Shown piece by piece: positions 44,915 through 54,877 of a stretch of 64,000 bases of DNA. This DNA is from Saprospira grandis DSM 2844 (GTDB lineage Bacteria > Bacteroidota > Bacteroidia > Chitinophagales > Saprospiraceae). Every line of letters begins with the position of its first letter. Within the stretch, counting starts at the first letter, position 1. Under the pieces are notes generated by a model. The model saw nothing but the letters and a program-made list of their open reading frames with translations. It ran no database searches and had not been told where the DNA came from. The stretch covers positions 2,042,013 to 2,106,012 of the forward strand of contig NZ_JH719942.1 in assembly GCF_000275825.1 (NCBI RefSeq), read 5' to 3'. The position numbers were made by a program, and so were the translations under genes.

Positions 44915-45724
44915 ATGAAACTAGAAGTATTAGATATCAACGGAAAAGGCTTGGGTAGAGAGGTAGAACTCTCTAGTGATGTCTTTGGTTTGGAGCTGAA
45001 AGAAAATCACGAGCACGTAGTTTACTTGGCTGTAAAGCAGTACCTTGCTCATCAGCGCCAGGGCACCCATAAGTCTAAAGAACGTGCAGAAATTGTAGGT
45101 TCTACGCGTAAGCTACACCGCCAGAAAGGCACGGGTGGAGCGCGTAAGGGTAGCATTAAGAACCCTTTGTTTAGAGGAGGAGGACGTGTATTTGGTCCCC
45201 GCCCTCGTAACTATGGCATTAAGCTAAACAAAAAAGTTGGCCGTTTGGCTCGTAAGGCTGCTTTGAGCAACAAGGCTCAAGATAACCGCATTGTGGTTGT
45301 TGAGGACTTGAAGTTTGATGCGGCTAAGACCAAGAACTACATCAAGTTTTTGGAGGCTTTGAATATTGCGAACAAGAAGAGTTTGTTGCTTGTAAATGCT
45401 CCTGTAGCACCTGCAGCACCTAAAGCTCCTCGTTTGCAGAAGGGCCGTGGACGTAAAGCGGCACAGCAGAAAGAGTTCAATCAGGCTTATGTAGCGGATT
45501 TGAAAGCTTATGAAGCAACTGTAGCGGAATATGAAAAAACGCTAGAGGAGCAGGATAAGGTTTATGATGAGGTATACACAAATGTGGCCTTATCTGCCCG
45601 CAACCTCTCTCAGGCTGATGTAATCAATGCTCGTGACTTGAATGTTTATGAGACAATGAATGCAGACTGCTTGGTAATTACGGAGAGTGCATTGGCTGCT
45701 ATTACAGCTCTTTTGACTAAATAA
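44915..45724 (+). CDS. rplD: 50S ribosomal protein L4 with a large insertion
   Basis: A 269-residue protein against about 200-210 in most bacteria. The core is recognisable: QGTHKSKERAEIVGSTRKLH, GTGGARKGSIKNPLFRGGG (the tunnel loop) and GPRPRNYGIKLNKKV. The C-terminal part resumes at VALSARNLSQADVINARDL. Between them, at residues about 162-222, lies some 60 extra residues: a Pro/Ala/Lys/Arg stretch (APVAPAAPKAPRLQKGRGRK) and then an acidic helix likely to form a coiled coil. The frame is unbroken and codon use is normal, so this is not a sequencing artefact. Confidence 0.95.
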   Translation: MKLEVLDINGKGLGREVELSSDVFGLELKENHEHVVYLAVKQYLAHQRQGTHKSKERAEIVGSTRKLHRQKGTGGARKGSIKNPLFRGGGRVFGPRPRNYGIKLNKKVGRLARKAALSNKAQDNRIVVVEDLKFDAAKTKNYIKFLEALNIANKKSLLLVNAPVAPAAPKAPRLQKGRGRKAAQQKEFNQAYVADLKAYEATVAEYEKTLEEQDKVYDEVYTNVALSARNLSQADVINARDLNVYETMNADCLVITESALAAITALLTK

Positions 45725-45754: not shown

Positions 45755-46117
45755 ATGGCAAAGAAAGCAATCATCATTAAGCCGCTTCTTTCTGAGAAGA
45801 GCACTGAGTTGGCTGACAACCCAATTTCTACGAAGTACACTTTTGTGGTGGCAATGGACGCCAACAAAATTGAGATCAAGAAAGCGGTTGAGGAGCAGTT
45901 TAGTGTAACTGTAGACGACGTAAACACTTCTATTCGCCCAGGTAAGCGTAAATCACGCGTAGTAAAAGGACGTATGGTAAGTGGACGTACTAGCCCTTAT
46001 AAGAAGGCAGTAGTAACTGTTGCCGAGGGAGAGTTCATTGAAGGTTTCTACGGTATTGACACGGAAGAGGAGTTGGAAGAAGTAGATGGAAACGAAACTG
46101 AGGCTGCAGAAGCCTAG
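45755..46117 (+). CDS. rplW: 50S ribosomal protein L23
   Basis: A 120-residue protein at the exit-tunnel rim, where it docks trigger factor, SRP and SecA/SecY. IIIKPLLSEKSTELAD and TKYTFVVAMDANKIEIKKAV are typical. It has an acidic C-terminal tail (EEELEEVDGNETEAAEA) of about 20 residues beyond the usual length. A 237-base gap with repeat copy 18 separates it from rplB, which is normally adjacent. Confidence 0.97.
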   Translation: MAKKAIIIKPLLSEKSTELADNPISTKYTFVVAMDANKIEIKKAVEEQFSVTVDDVNTSIRPGKRKSRVVKGRMVSGRTSPYKKAVVTVAEGEFIEGFYGIDTEEELEEVDGNETEAAEA

Positions 46118-47507: not shown

Positions 47508-47933
47508 ATGCAATATAATAATGAGACGGTACAGGCGACGGCGAAGTTGAAAGGCTGCCGGATGTCTGCGCGCAAGATGCGTTTGTCTGCGGATATTGTC
47601 CGTGGTCTACCTGTATCAAAGGCTTTGGGTATTGTAAAATTTACCCGTAAGGAAGGTGCTCGTCATTTGGAGAAGATGCTATTATCTGCAGTAGCGAACT
47701 GGTCTGTATTGACTGGTGAGGAGGCAGATGAGTATGGCTTGGTCGTGAAGGCTATTTGGGTAGACCAAGGGCCTCAGCTCAAGCGTTTTTTGCCTGCGCC
47801 ACATGGTCGTGCGCACCGTATTCGTAAACATTCTTGTCACGTAAGTTTGGTGGTAGAGAATACCGTAGCTCTTCCTACTGATTTTGTAGTAGAGGAAGAA
47901 GTGGCAGAAGAAATTGAAGCATCAAACGATTAA
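47508..47933 (+). CDS. rplV: 50S ribosomal protein L22
   Basis: A 141-residue exit-tunnel protein. GCRMSARKMRLSADIVRGLP and the tunnel loop region WVDQGPQLKRFLPAPHGRAH are conserved, followed by IRKHSCHVSLVVE. A short acidic tail (EEEVAEEIEASND) extends the usual length. Confidence 0.97.
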   Translation: MQYNNETVQATAKLKGCRMSARKMRLSADIVRGLPVSKALGIVKFTRKEGARHLEKMLLSAVANWSVLTGEEADEYGLVVKAIWVDQGPQLKRFLPAPHGRAHRIRKHSCHVSLVVENTVALPTDFVVEEEVAEEIEASND

Positions 47934-52529: not shown

Positions 52530-52910
52530 ATGGCTTCAAAACAAATGACTCGTCGTCAGCGCATTCACAGAAGAATCCGCAAAAAGCTTAAAGGTACTGC
52601 CGAGCGCCCACGCATGACAGTATACCGAAGCAACTCTCATATATCTGTCCAGCTAATCAATGATATCGCTGGCACAACATTGGTCTCCGCTAGCTCTAAA
52701 GAAGACGGAATTGATGGCCAAAATGTCAATAAATCTGAAAAAGCTCGCCTAGTTGGTGGCCTGATTGCCAAAAAAGCAATCGAAAAAGGTATCAACACGG
52801 TTGTCTTCGATCGTGGTGGCTACCTCTACCATGGCCGCATCAAAGCCCTCGCAGAAGGCGCTCGCGGTGCCCAAAAAGAAGATGGCAGCAATGAGCTCCT
52901 TCAATTCTAA
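52530..52910 (+). CDS. rplR: 50S ribosomal protein L18
   Basis: A 126-residue 5S rRNA binder. [20 protein letters not shown] and [20 protein letters not shown] are followed by the conserved [21 protein letters not shown] short C-terminal extension ([12 protein letters not shown]) runs past the usual REGGL end. Confidence 0.97.
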
Positions 52911-53695: not shown

Positions 53696-54385
53696 ATGAA
53701 ACTGAGTAACCTCAAACCCGCTAACGGTGCCGTAAAGAATCGTAAACGCATCGGCCGCGGGACTAGCTCAGGCCGTGGTGGAACTTCTACTCGCGGTCAT
53801 AAAGGTGCCAAATCTCGCTCTGGATTCAAAAGCAAAAGAGGCCATGAAGGTGGCCAAATGCCTATCCAAATGCGCCTGCCTAAACGCGGATTCAAAAATA
53901 CTGCCCGCCGCTATCAATCTTACCAACCCGATAGCTTCACCGTAGTAAATTTGAACGACCTCCAAGATGCAGCCAACAAAATGAATACGACTACTGTCGA
54001 TATCAATACTCTAGTCGCTGCCGGCCTCATCAAAAAGAATGAACAGTTTAAGGTCCTCGCTCAAGGCGAACTAACTGCCGCTCTTCAAGTTTCTGCCTTC
54101 CGCTTCTCTAAAGCTGCCAAAACAGCTATCGAAGAAAAAGGAGGAAGCTGCATGCTTATCGTTAAAGCTAACCAAATCCAAGGTGTCGTAGAAGCTGCTA
54201 AGCTCTCTGCCGTAGGCGCCAAAGAATTGGCCGAGCACTTTAAGCACCTTAATGAAGACGATAAGTTGCACGTTATCGCTGAAGGTAGCCTCAAAACTAA
54301 ATTTGACCTCCAAGCTACTAAGGTAGACGATGAAGTCAAAACTCAAATCGAAGCCTTAGGCGCAGCAGTCTCTCTGCTCGGCTAA
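53696..54385 (+). CDS. rplO: 50S ribosomal protein L15 with duplicated C-terminal domain
   Basis: A 229-residue protein against about 145-150 in most bacteria. The Gly/Arg-rich N-terminus (GRGTSSGRGGTSTRGHKGAK, RLPKRGF) is normal. The usual L15 end is residues 118-155: FKVLAQGELTAALQVSAFRF and SKAAKTAIEEKGGSCMLI. About 75 more residues follow, and residues 191-228 (LHVIAEGSLKTKFDLQATKV, DDEVKTQIEALGAAVSLL) match that segment at about one quarter identity with the same hydrophobic pattern. An internal duplication of the L15/L18e-type element is the likely origin. A terminator follows the gene. Confidence 0.95.
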   Translation: MKLSNLKPANGAVKNRKRIGRGTSSGRGGTSTRGHKGAKSRSGFKSKRGHEGGQMPIQMRLPKRGFKNTARRYQSYQPDSFTVVNLNDLQDAANKMNTTTVDINTLVAAGLIKKNEQFKVLAQGELTAALQVSAFRFSKAAKTAIEEKGGSCMLIVKANQIQGVVEAAKLSAVGAKELAEHFKHLNEDDKLHVIAEGSLKTKFDLQATKVDDEVKTQIEALGAAVSLLG

Positions 54386-54388
54386 AAT

Positions 54389-54438
54389 CGGTACAAGCCT
54401 AAAAGGAGAAATTCTACTTTCTCCTTCTTTTTTGTACC
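54389..54438 (+). terminator. Intrinsic terminator after rplO
   Basis: GGTACAA and TTGTACC enclose an inner stem AAAGGAGAAA / TTTCTCC followed by TTCTTTTTT. It would separate secY and the alpha genes from the upstream ribosomal genes. Confidence 0.75.
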
Positions 54439-54476
54439 CCAAGTGTCTAATGCTTTAGCTCCCCTTTCTTAAGGTT

Positions 54477-54595
54477 TTTTGGGGCCTGCCGCTTTCAGCG
54501 GCCGCTCCCTTGCACAGCTCGCAAGCCTGCTCGGCCCTCAGCGCTTTCAGCGCCTCGGTCTGTGGCTCCGCCACACTGCTTCAGGCAGCTAGGCC
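54477..54595 (+). repeat. DHR copy 19, type A, within the spc region
   Basis: Head GGGGCCT, tail TAGGCC. First hairpin CCGCTTTCAGCGG, second AGCGCTTTCAGCGC, third GTGGCTCCGCCAC. Core variant CAGCTCGCAAGCCTGCTCGG, like copy 18. It lies between rplO and secY. Confidence 0.85.
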
Positions 54596-54877
54596 AATGC
54601 ATACCGCTCCGCAAAAACAAAAAACCCGAAAACTGGGAGAAATACTTACTAAAATAGCCGCATTAGCCCAAAGCTTTGCTGCCCAGGATAAAAACCCCAG
54701 CCTATTGCCTATAATAGGCTAGGGGTTACTAGGGCCTTTAATACCCCTTTTGTCCTTTTTCGCAGATATAAAGCCTCACTAAGCGCTATTTATTTCCTTC
54801 CCTAAAATAATTCTCTTAATTTAGGGGCCGCAAAAGTCAATCTAGACACCTCTTTTAGACTATAACAGAGCTGATCC
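54596..54877 (+). promoter_or_regulatory. secY leader region with hairpin 54693-54726
   Basis: The 492-base gap between rplO and secY holds a terminator, repeat copy 19 and this stretch. AACCCCAGCCTATT opposite AATAGGCTAGGGGTT forms a strong hairpin without a T-run. A promoter for secY-infA-rpmJ is expected here, but no clear TAnnTTTG element is seen. Confidence 0.4.

Follow-up and report, generated by a model that had tools for sequence, protein, structure and literature searches.

Tandem Duplication of the C-Terminal Domain of Ribosomal Protein uL15 in a Saprospira/Aureispira Clade with an Enlarged uL4

RESULTS

The window, meaning the whole 64,000-nucleotide stretch of the Saprospira grandis DSM 2844 genome that was analyzed, carries the rplO gene in its spc-operon position, after the genes for uS5 and uL30 and before secY, and the same order of open reading frames was observed in relatives. 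Family searches confirmed uL15, uL4, and uL23 only, while uS5, uL30, SecY, and the other ribosomal proteins (r-proteins) were named by eye and from gene order. Proteins and genomes with the additional C-terminal region of uL15 described here are referred to as tailed and those of relatives without this region as untailed. The following features were found at rplO.

53696 to 54385, + strand: rplO, encoding uL15 of 229 amino acids (aa), in which the C-terminal domain is duplicated in tandem (TIGR01071, PF00828)
53912 to 53932, + strand: insertion of ~7 aa, residues 73 to 79, just before the first domain (alignment of 16 tailed and 15 untailed uL15 sequences)
53933 to 54160, + strand: first (canonical) L18e-like C-terminal domain, residues 80 to 155 (hhalign, untailed-domain profile, and AlphaFold2 model)
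54152 to 54379, + strand: second (duplicated) L18e-like domain, residues 153 to 228 (local alignment, hhalign, profile searches, AlphaFold2, Foldseek, and VIA-align)
54403 to 54426, + strand: terminator-like stem-loop and then a T run, 3' of rplO (9-pair stem)

The original prediction for this locus was of an L15 protein of 229 residues with an intact frame and a clean terminator. The frame at 53696 to 54385 of the + strand was indeed open and encoded 229 aa, and a stem of 9 pairs followed by a T run was located at 54403 to 54426, in a scan that detected 2 such sites compared to 1.0 expected from shuffles (standard deviation, 1.1). This stem-loop lies in a gap of ~490 nt between rplO and secY (window 54386 to 54877). 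The protein scored 152.5 bits with TIGR01071 (cut-off, 77.95), for which the best stretch was residues 2 to 152, and 76.6 bits with PF00828 (cut-off, 21.5), for which two stretches were matched. As the curated uL15 cut-off was cleared, the protein was regarded as uL15 with a variant architecture and not as a member of another family, having two C-terminal L18e-like domains in place of the usual single one. The N-terminal arm and the first C-terminal domain (CTD) are like those of ordinary bacterial uL15 (rplO; TIGR01071, PF00828), which lacks both the second tandem CTD and the ~7-aa insertion; the insertion was present in 16/16 tailed and 0/15 untailed proteins of the alignment. In none of the 54 PDB sequences matched at an E value of up to 1e-20 did the best stretch extend past profile position 168 of 228.

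A second copy of the C-terminal element had been proposed on the basis of a repeat of residues 118 to 155 at residues 191 to 228 with about one-quarter identity. This repeat was confirmed by the presence of 11/38 identities in an ungapped comparison of the two segments, whose offset of 73 gave the top score among offsets of 60 to 89. The local alignment score of 54 (shuffle mean, 26; standard deviation, 4.9) was reached by 1 of 5,000 shuffles, or by 2 of 5,000 when the whole of the first 157 residues was used. Profile comparisons were performed with an alignment set of 31 sequences, comprising 16 tailed uL15 proteins, the window's own included, and 15 untailed relatives. A profile of the 15 untailed relatives detected two domains in the window uL15, with i-E values of 2.3e-26 and 8.4e-07, and had no match besides this protein among 731 window frames of at least 40 aa. 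A profile of the untailed domain detected two domains in 16/16 tailed proteins, with i-E values for the second domain of 3.5e-18 to 2.5e-07, and in G306 the second domain scored slightly above the first.

The window tail alone matched PF00828 over profile positions 2 to 71 of 72 with an E value of 0.0017 (19.2 bits; curated gathering cut-off, 21.5). This family was matched at an E value of up to 1 by 15/16 tails, the best value being 7.8e-13, and weak matches of tails to other Pfam names (DUF6461 and others) were taken as chance. In hhalign comparisons, the 16 tails aligned with the untailed CTDs over 75 columns (Prob, 99.1; E value, 8.9e-19) and with the first domain of the same tailed proteins (Prob, 97.3; E value, 2.4e-11), while the lowest E value and the highest Prob among 200 column-shuffled controls were 0.0038 and 8.75, respectively. 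The two-domain profile matches, the hhalign results, and the PF00828 matches in 15/16 tails indicated that the repeated unit is a complete L18e-like domain. Residues ~153 to 228 of uL15 are a complete tandem copy, with a period of 73 aa, of the L18e-like CTD at residues ~80 to 155. The proposed duplication was therefore real, but its extent had been underestimated, as the whole domain of ~73 aa is repeated and not just the last 38 residues. A frame artifact or an assembly error was rejected, because the same full-length architecture was present without stops in 16 assemblies, some of which are near-identical to each other.

The second domain could in principle be an acquired archaeal or eukaryotic eL18 protein and not a copy of the uL15 domain. 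The fold is shared, with eL18 being assigned to the same CATH class as uL15 domain 2 in the passage cited (PMC11354259), but the matches of the tail were to bacterial L15. The window tail alone matched TIGR01071 with an E value of 0.0025 over L15 positions 76 to 142, whereas the L18e equivalog NF003079, which scored 37.7 bits against a cut-off of 85, fell on residues 119 to 158 of the full protein, in domain 1, and was not listed for the tail. PF17135 similarly fell within domain 1 (residues 129 to 155; E value, 0.041) and was not listed for the tail. When a profile of the tails was compared with PDB sequences, L15 chains were at the top and the first eL18 chain was at an E value of 0.33. An eL18 origin is, on these results, scarcely credible.

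An AlphaFold2 model of the full-length protein, built from the 31-sequence alignment, had a poorly predicted N-terminal arm followed by two consecutive domains with block-mean pLDDT values of 89 to 94 from residue 81. The order of strands and helices was equal in both copies, and a strand at residues 151 to 157 closed the first copy and opened the second. As the output came without an inter-domain error estimate, the model was read for the fold of each domain by itself. The tail was also modeled alone, with a pLDDT of 91.6. A Foldseek search with this tail-alone model detected 7 PDB chains at an E value of up to 0.001, six of which were L15 by molecule name and the seventh of which was a chain of the Haloarcula 50S. 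A viral structure library had no match at an E value of up to 0.001. With VIA-align, the best match was 9i5t_O, a uL15 CTD (Z, 12.6; rmsd, 1.4; 74 aligned), and 7jil_L of Flavobacterium was matched at a Z of 11.4. The high-confidence prediction for the second domain is a uL15 CTD fold. The outcome named in advance as telling against a duplication, a tail fold unlike that of the L15 C terminus, was the reverse of what was obtained with respect to the pLDDT, the best PDB match, and the occurrence of PF00828 in 15/16 tails.

In the full-length model, the C-terminal extensions of mitochondrial uL15m (9evs_1M, 7qi5_M, and 3j6b_J) aligned with part of the second domain. A true homologue of the second domain in uL15m, as suggested by this alignment, was unsupported by the search with the tail-alone model, which matched the first domain of uL15m.

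Alignments of this kind bear on an explanation in which a lineage-specific factor docks on the second domain, close to the tRNA exit site or the central protuberance, comparable to the pairing of uL15m with ICT1/mL62, and in which the uL4 insertion described below is independent. The uL15m chains spanned both domains of the full-length model (9evs_1M, model residues 72 to 229, Z of 9.4; 7qi5_M, residues 70 to 225, Z of 8.6). Residues 225, 240, and 261 of human uL15m are given among the binders of ICT1 (PMC12319706), and the C-terminal extension of chloroplast uL15c is described as lying near the E site (PMC5071890). The tail-alone model, however, matched the first domain of the listed mitochondrial chains, and hence a second L18e domain in uL15m is at most tentative. 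We consider a platform for such a factor to be unlikely.

The distribution of the tail was examined in three samples. Among 60 relatives, an L15 match was obtained in 57 and the tail in 6. In a family sample of 398 genomes, L15 was matched in 367 and the tail was present in 16, with a gap in the best E values from 3.3e-86 to 8.8e-64. In a phylum sample of 395 genomes, L15 was matched in 381 and the tail was found in 1, the window's own genome (E value of 3.1e-117, compared to 2.8e-62 for the next). Outside the best rows of the family, phylum, and uL4 searches, these counts were judged by the best E value and could be escaped by a strongly diverged tail. G003, a genome of the same genus that is 63% complete, had no uL15 or uL4 match and was counted in neither the tailed nor the untailed group. 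A scan of named genomes with a single peptide pattern of the tail, which was not exhaustive, detected 7 loci, of which four were in Aureispira records and the others in Saprospira grandis Lewin and in two MAGs, one of Saprospiraceae and one of Chitinophagales. The concern that such a tail might be common in Bacteroidota and already described was not borne out as far as it was tested (16/367 in the family and 1/381 in the phylum). No description of this uL15 CTD duplication was found among the papers listed in searches of an open-licence library.

A tree of 46 loci was constructed from uS5, uL30, uL15 residues 1 to 72, and part of SecY, with both uL15 domains and the 7-aa insertion excluded. 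The branch between the 16 tailed and 30 untailed loci had a UFBoot value of 100, and G084 was the first branch within the tailed clade (support, 74). The second domain was full-length and recognizable in all 16 members found. These results indicated that the common ancestor of the Saprospira/Aureispira clade duplicated the uL15 CTD in frame and in tandem, once. The duplication first noticed in this genome has thus held up, while its apparent peculiarity to this genome has not, as the tail marks one clade of 16 genomes.

Estimates of NG86 omega for domain 2 ranged from 0.079 to 0.285 in 7/7 pairs, which are not independent of each other, and those for domain 1 ranged from 0.046 to 0.155 in 6 pairs, with dS being saturated in the seventh. 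The second uL15 domain is under purifying selection. In 5/6 comparable pairs, omega for domain 2 exceeded that for domain 1, indicating that the constraint on the copy is somewhat weaker than that on domain 1. Pairwise identity among tailed uL15 proteins was similar for the two domains, with that of domain 2 being slightly lower in the Saprospira group and slightly higher in the Aureispira group, and domain 2 was more conserved than domain 1 in 5/6 pairs of the four g22/g98 representatives. The identity of tailed domain 1 to untailed CTDs was 0.39, compared to 0.45 for untailed CTDs among themselves (N-terminal identity, 0.75 to 0.80). The net charge was +14 to +21 for the uL15 arm, -1 to +2 for domain 1 in 15/16 proteins (-4 in G084), and -3 to -5 for domain 2 in 15/16 proteins (0 in G084).

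A comparison of gene products across the S10-spc-alpha cluster covered 7 tailed genomes, one of them the window's own, and 4 untailed ones, of which G011 was represented by a stretch that ended before the last genes. Two further products of the window were enlarged.

44915 to 45724, + strand: rplD, encoding uL4 of 269 aa (207 to 217 aa in 4 untailed relatives; gene-product comparison and family search)
45395 to 45565, + strand: lineage-specific insertion of ~57 aa in uL4, residues ~161 to 217 (Pro-rich at first, then charged and, judged by eye, helical in appearance)
45755 to 46117, + strand: rplW, encoding uL23 of 120 aa with an acidic C-terminal extension, residues ~102 to 120 (46058 to 46114; gene-product comparison and family search)

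The uL4 protein was 269 to 275 aa in the 7 tailed genomes versus 207 to 217 aa in the 4 untailed genomes, and the insertion had no match in Pfam. A uL4 profile was matched by 364 of the 398 genomes of the family sample, and in 16 of these the match ran in one piece over 274 to 275 positions. The genomes with the uL4 insertion were the 16 with the uL15 duplication, and the other 348 were without it (best E values of 1.8e-124 or better versus 2.6e-81 or worse). For PDB sequences, the best stretch ended at or before position 169 of 275 in the uL4 profile among the 60 of 77 matches listed. The uL23 protein was 110 to 120 aa in 16/16 tailed genomes versus 98 to 99 aa in the 4 untailed genomes measured; in the cluster comparison, it was 116 to 120 aa in the tailed genomes versus 98 aa in the untailed ones, apart from one untailed frame that reads 114 aa due to an upstream start. 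As the 16 genomes form one clade, the uL15 duplication, the uL4 insertion, and the longer uL23 are most simply dated to the same stem branch.

Small differences were observed in two other products. In the 7 tailed genomes of the comparison, uL22 (window 47508 to 47933) is longer by 7 residues at the N terminus, and in all of these except G084, uL18 (window 52530 to 52910) has ~8 additional residues near the C terminus. By inspection, the remaining products of the cluster had no consistent difference in length between tailed and untailed genomes. Lengths of bL20 were 114 to 115 aa in 13 tailed and 114 to 117 aa in 10 untailed genomes, while bL35 was 64 aa in 13/15 tailed genomes (66 and 127 aa in the others) and 64 to 66 aa in untailed genomes, with one of 95 aa. 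The similar lengths of bL20 and bL35 in the two groups indicated that there was no general inflation of r-proteins. For bL21, the length was exactly 101 aa in 7/14 tailed genomes and 102 aa in two, the other frames being uncertain or wrong.

These proteins were also relevant to the idea that the second domain replaces a lost neighboring r-protein, which was rejected because bL35, bL21, bL20, and uL13 were found in nearly all tailed genomes. The bL35 protein was detected in 15/16 (not in G330), bL21 in 14/14, bL20 in 13/14 (not in G330), and uL13 in 13/14 (not in G359), with the presence of bL21 and uL13 being based on one-piece profile matches. As bL35 and bL20 adjoin, their absence in G330 is probably an assembly gap.

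No clade-specific indel of more than 3 nt was detected within the 23S rRNA gene in comparisons of 3 to 7 tailed and 2 to 7 untailed sequences, depending on position, the 5' part being compared in 3 tailed and 2 to 3 untailed sequences. Full-length 23S genes were 2,868 nt in tailed G154 and 2,882 nt in untailed G113. The fold of the second domain is that of an r-protein domain and would suit an extra rRNA-binding domain that compensates for an altered 23S rRNA. The limit of 3 nt on clade-specific indels in the readable part, the similar 23S lengths of G154 and G113, and the acidity of domain 2 in 15/16 proteins nevertheless argue against such compensation, which we regard as highly unlikely.

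The growths could also be constructive neutral ornaments that were fixed on one stem branch and kept by tolerance or dependence, with domain 2 having no specific new partner. Consistent with this are the confinement of the tail to one clade, the enlargement of several r-proteins in that clade, the unrelated low-complexity uL15 tail in another family member (G251; 231 aa), the higher omega of domain 2 in 5/6 comparable pairs, and the frequency of r-protein extensions in some lineages, chloroplasts among them (PMC5071890). At 0.079 to 0.285, however, omega for domain 2 remains well under 1, the domain is full-length and recognizable in the 16 members found, and it is the more conserved of the two in 5/6 pairs of the four g22/g98 representatives. 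A neutral origin and retention is possible but rather doubtful.

DISCUSSION

The explanation that we favor as the best, with about even confidence, is that an ancestral duplication was kept as a protein-docking domain of the 50S, with the uL4 insertion as its possible counterpart. The complete L18e-like uL15 CTD was duplicated in tandem and in frame in the Saprospira/Aureispira stem, and the second domain would be a built-in part of the 50S, acting via protein-protein docking and not via rRNA binding. More tentatively, its partner would be the uL4 insertion, and the pair would brace the uL15-uL4 sector of the large subunit. Docking is preferred over rRNA binding because domain 2 is acidic in 15/16 proteins, domain 1 is near neutral, and the arm is strongly basic. 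A finding against docking is that the charges are reversed in the first-branching G084 (domain 1, -4; domain 2, 0). We infer the position of the second domain as well as its partner; the domain could plausibly lie on the solvent side of the 50S.

The proteins uL15, uL4, and uL23 lie in the same sector of the subunit. Their co-occurring changes in one clade amount to one evolutionary event, so that co-occurrence by itself shows no functional link between uL15 and uL4. A contact between bacterial uL15 and uL4 is known (PMC4881015), and the residue pair named in the passage cited involves Pro 8 of uL15, which is in the N-terminal part and not in the CTD. Other partners of the second domain are suggested by the holding of ICT1 by uL15m and by the chloroplast uL15c C-terminal extension, which is placed near the tRNA exit site and may be far from the globular domain of uL4 (PMC5071890).

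In yeast, eL18 and ES15L accommodate the initial segment of the uL4 extension (PMC4598080), and the extensions of eL13 and eL18 are described as meeting on uL15 (PMC7804294). The clade is like this eukaryotic arrangement of eL18 and the uL4 (Rpl4) extension in having an extra L18e-fold domain beside an enlarged uL4. It differs in that the domain is fused to and derived from uL15, that the uL4 addition is internal and not C-terminal, and that the contact is one that we only infer. The bolder proposal that a bacterial lineage independently rebuilt the eL18/uL4-extension module, with a uL15 copy in an eL18-like role receiving the uL4 insertion to form a protein-protein brace that spans the back of the 50S with no expansion of rRNA, is one to which we give little weight.

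Two organellar systems were also compared. Mitochondrial uL15m is a longer uL15 whose C-terminal region aligns partly with domain 2 and which docks ICT1 in humans (PMC12319706), but a duplication of the L18e domain in uL15m is at most tentative, the first domain being the part matched by the tail-alone model. In chloroplasts, L15, L4, and L23 were extended together in one lineage, as in the clade; unlike in the clade, the extensions are terminal and many other plastid r-proteins are enlarged too, according to the passages cited (PMC5071890).

The clade-specific architecture of uL15 with two CTDs, coinciding with an enlarged uL4, is a new form of uL15. A near-universal protein doubled a domain once, with a uL4 insertion and a longer uL23, in a clade that includes the complete genome of Saprospira grandis Lewin. 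To our knowledge, core bacterial r-proteins rarely gain a whole folded domain. The clade provides a natural bacterial test of whether r-proteins grow in matched pairs that contact each other, as has been proposed for the ribosomes of eukaryotes (PMC7804294), and of whether such growth needs rRNA expansion. R-protein alignments used for phylogeny carry a hidden repeat in the uL15 of this clade.

The duplication is a marker of the clade. The length of uL15 alone was rejected as a marker of duplication, since the uL15 of G251 is 231 aa with one domain and an unrelated tail; in the same check, 10 other genomes whose open frames were long had an ordinary uL15 of 148 to 154 aa with one domain. The C-terminal tail of the G251 protein (locus L234; G251:C339:23400-24500) is of low complexity and partly acidic. 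Together with the duplication in the clade, this unrelated tail indicated that uL15 was lengthened at least twice in the family, by different means.
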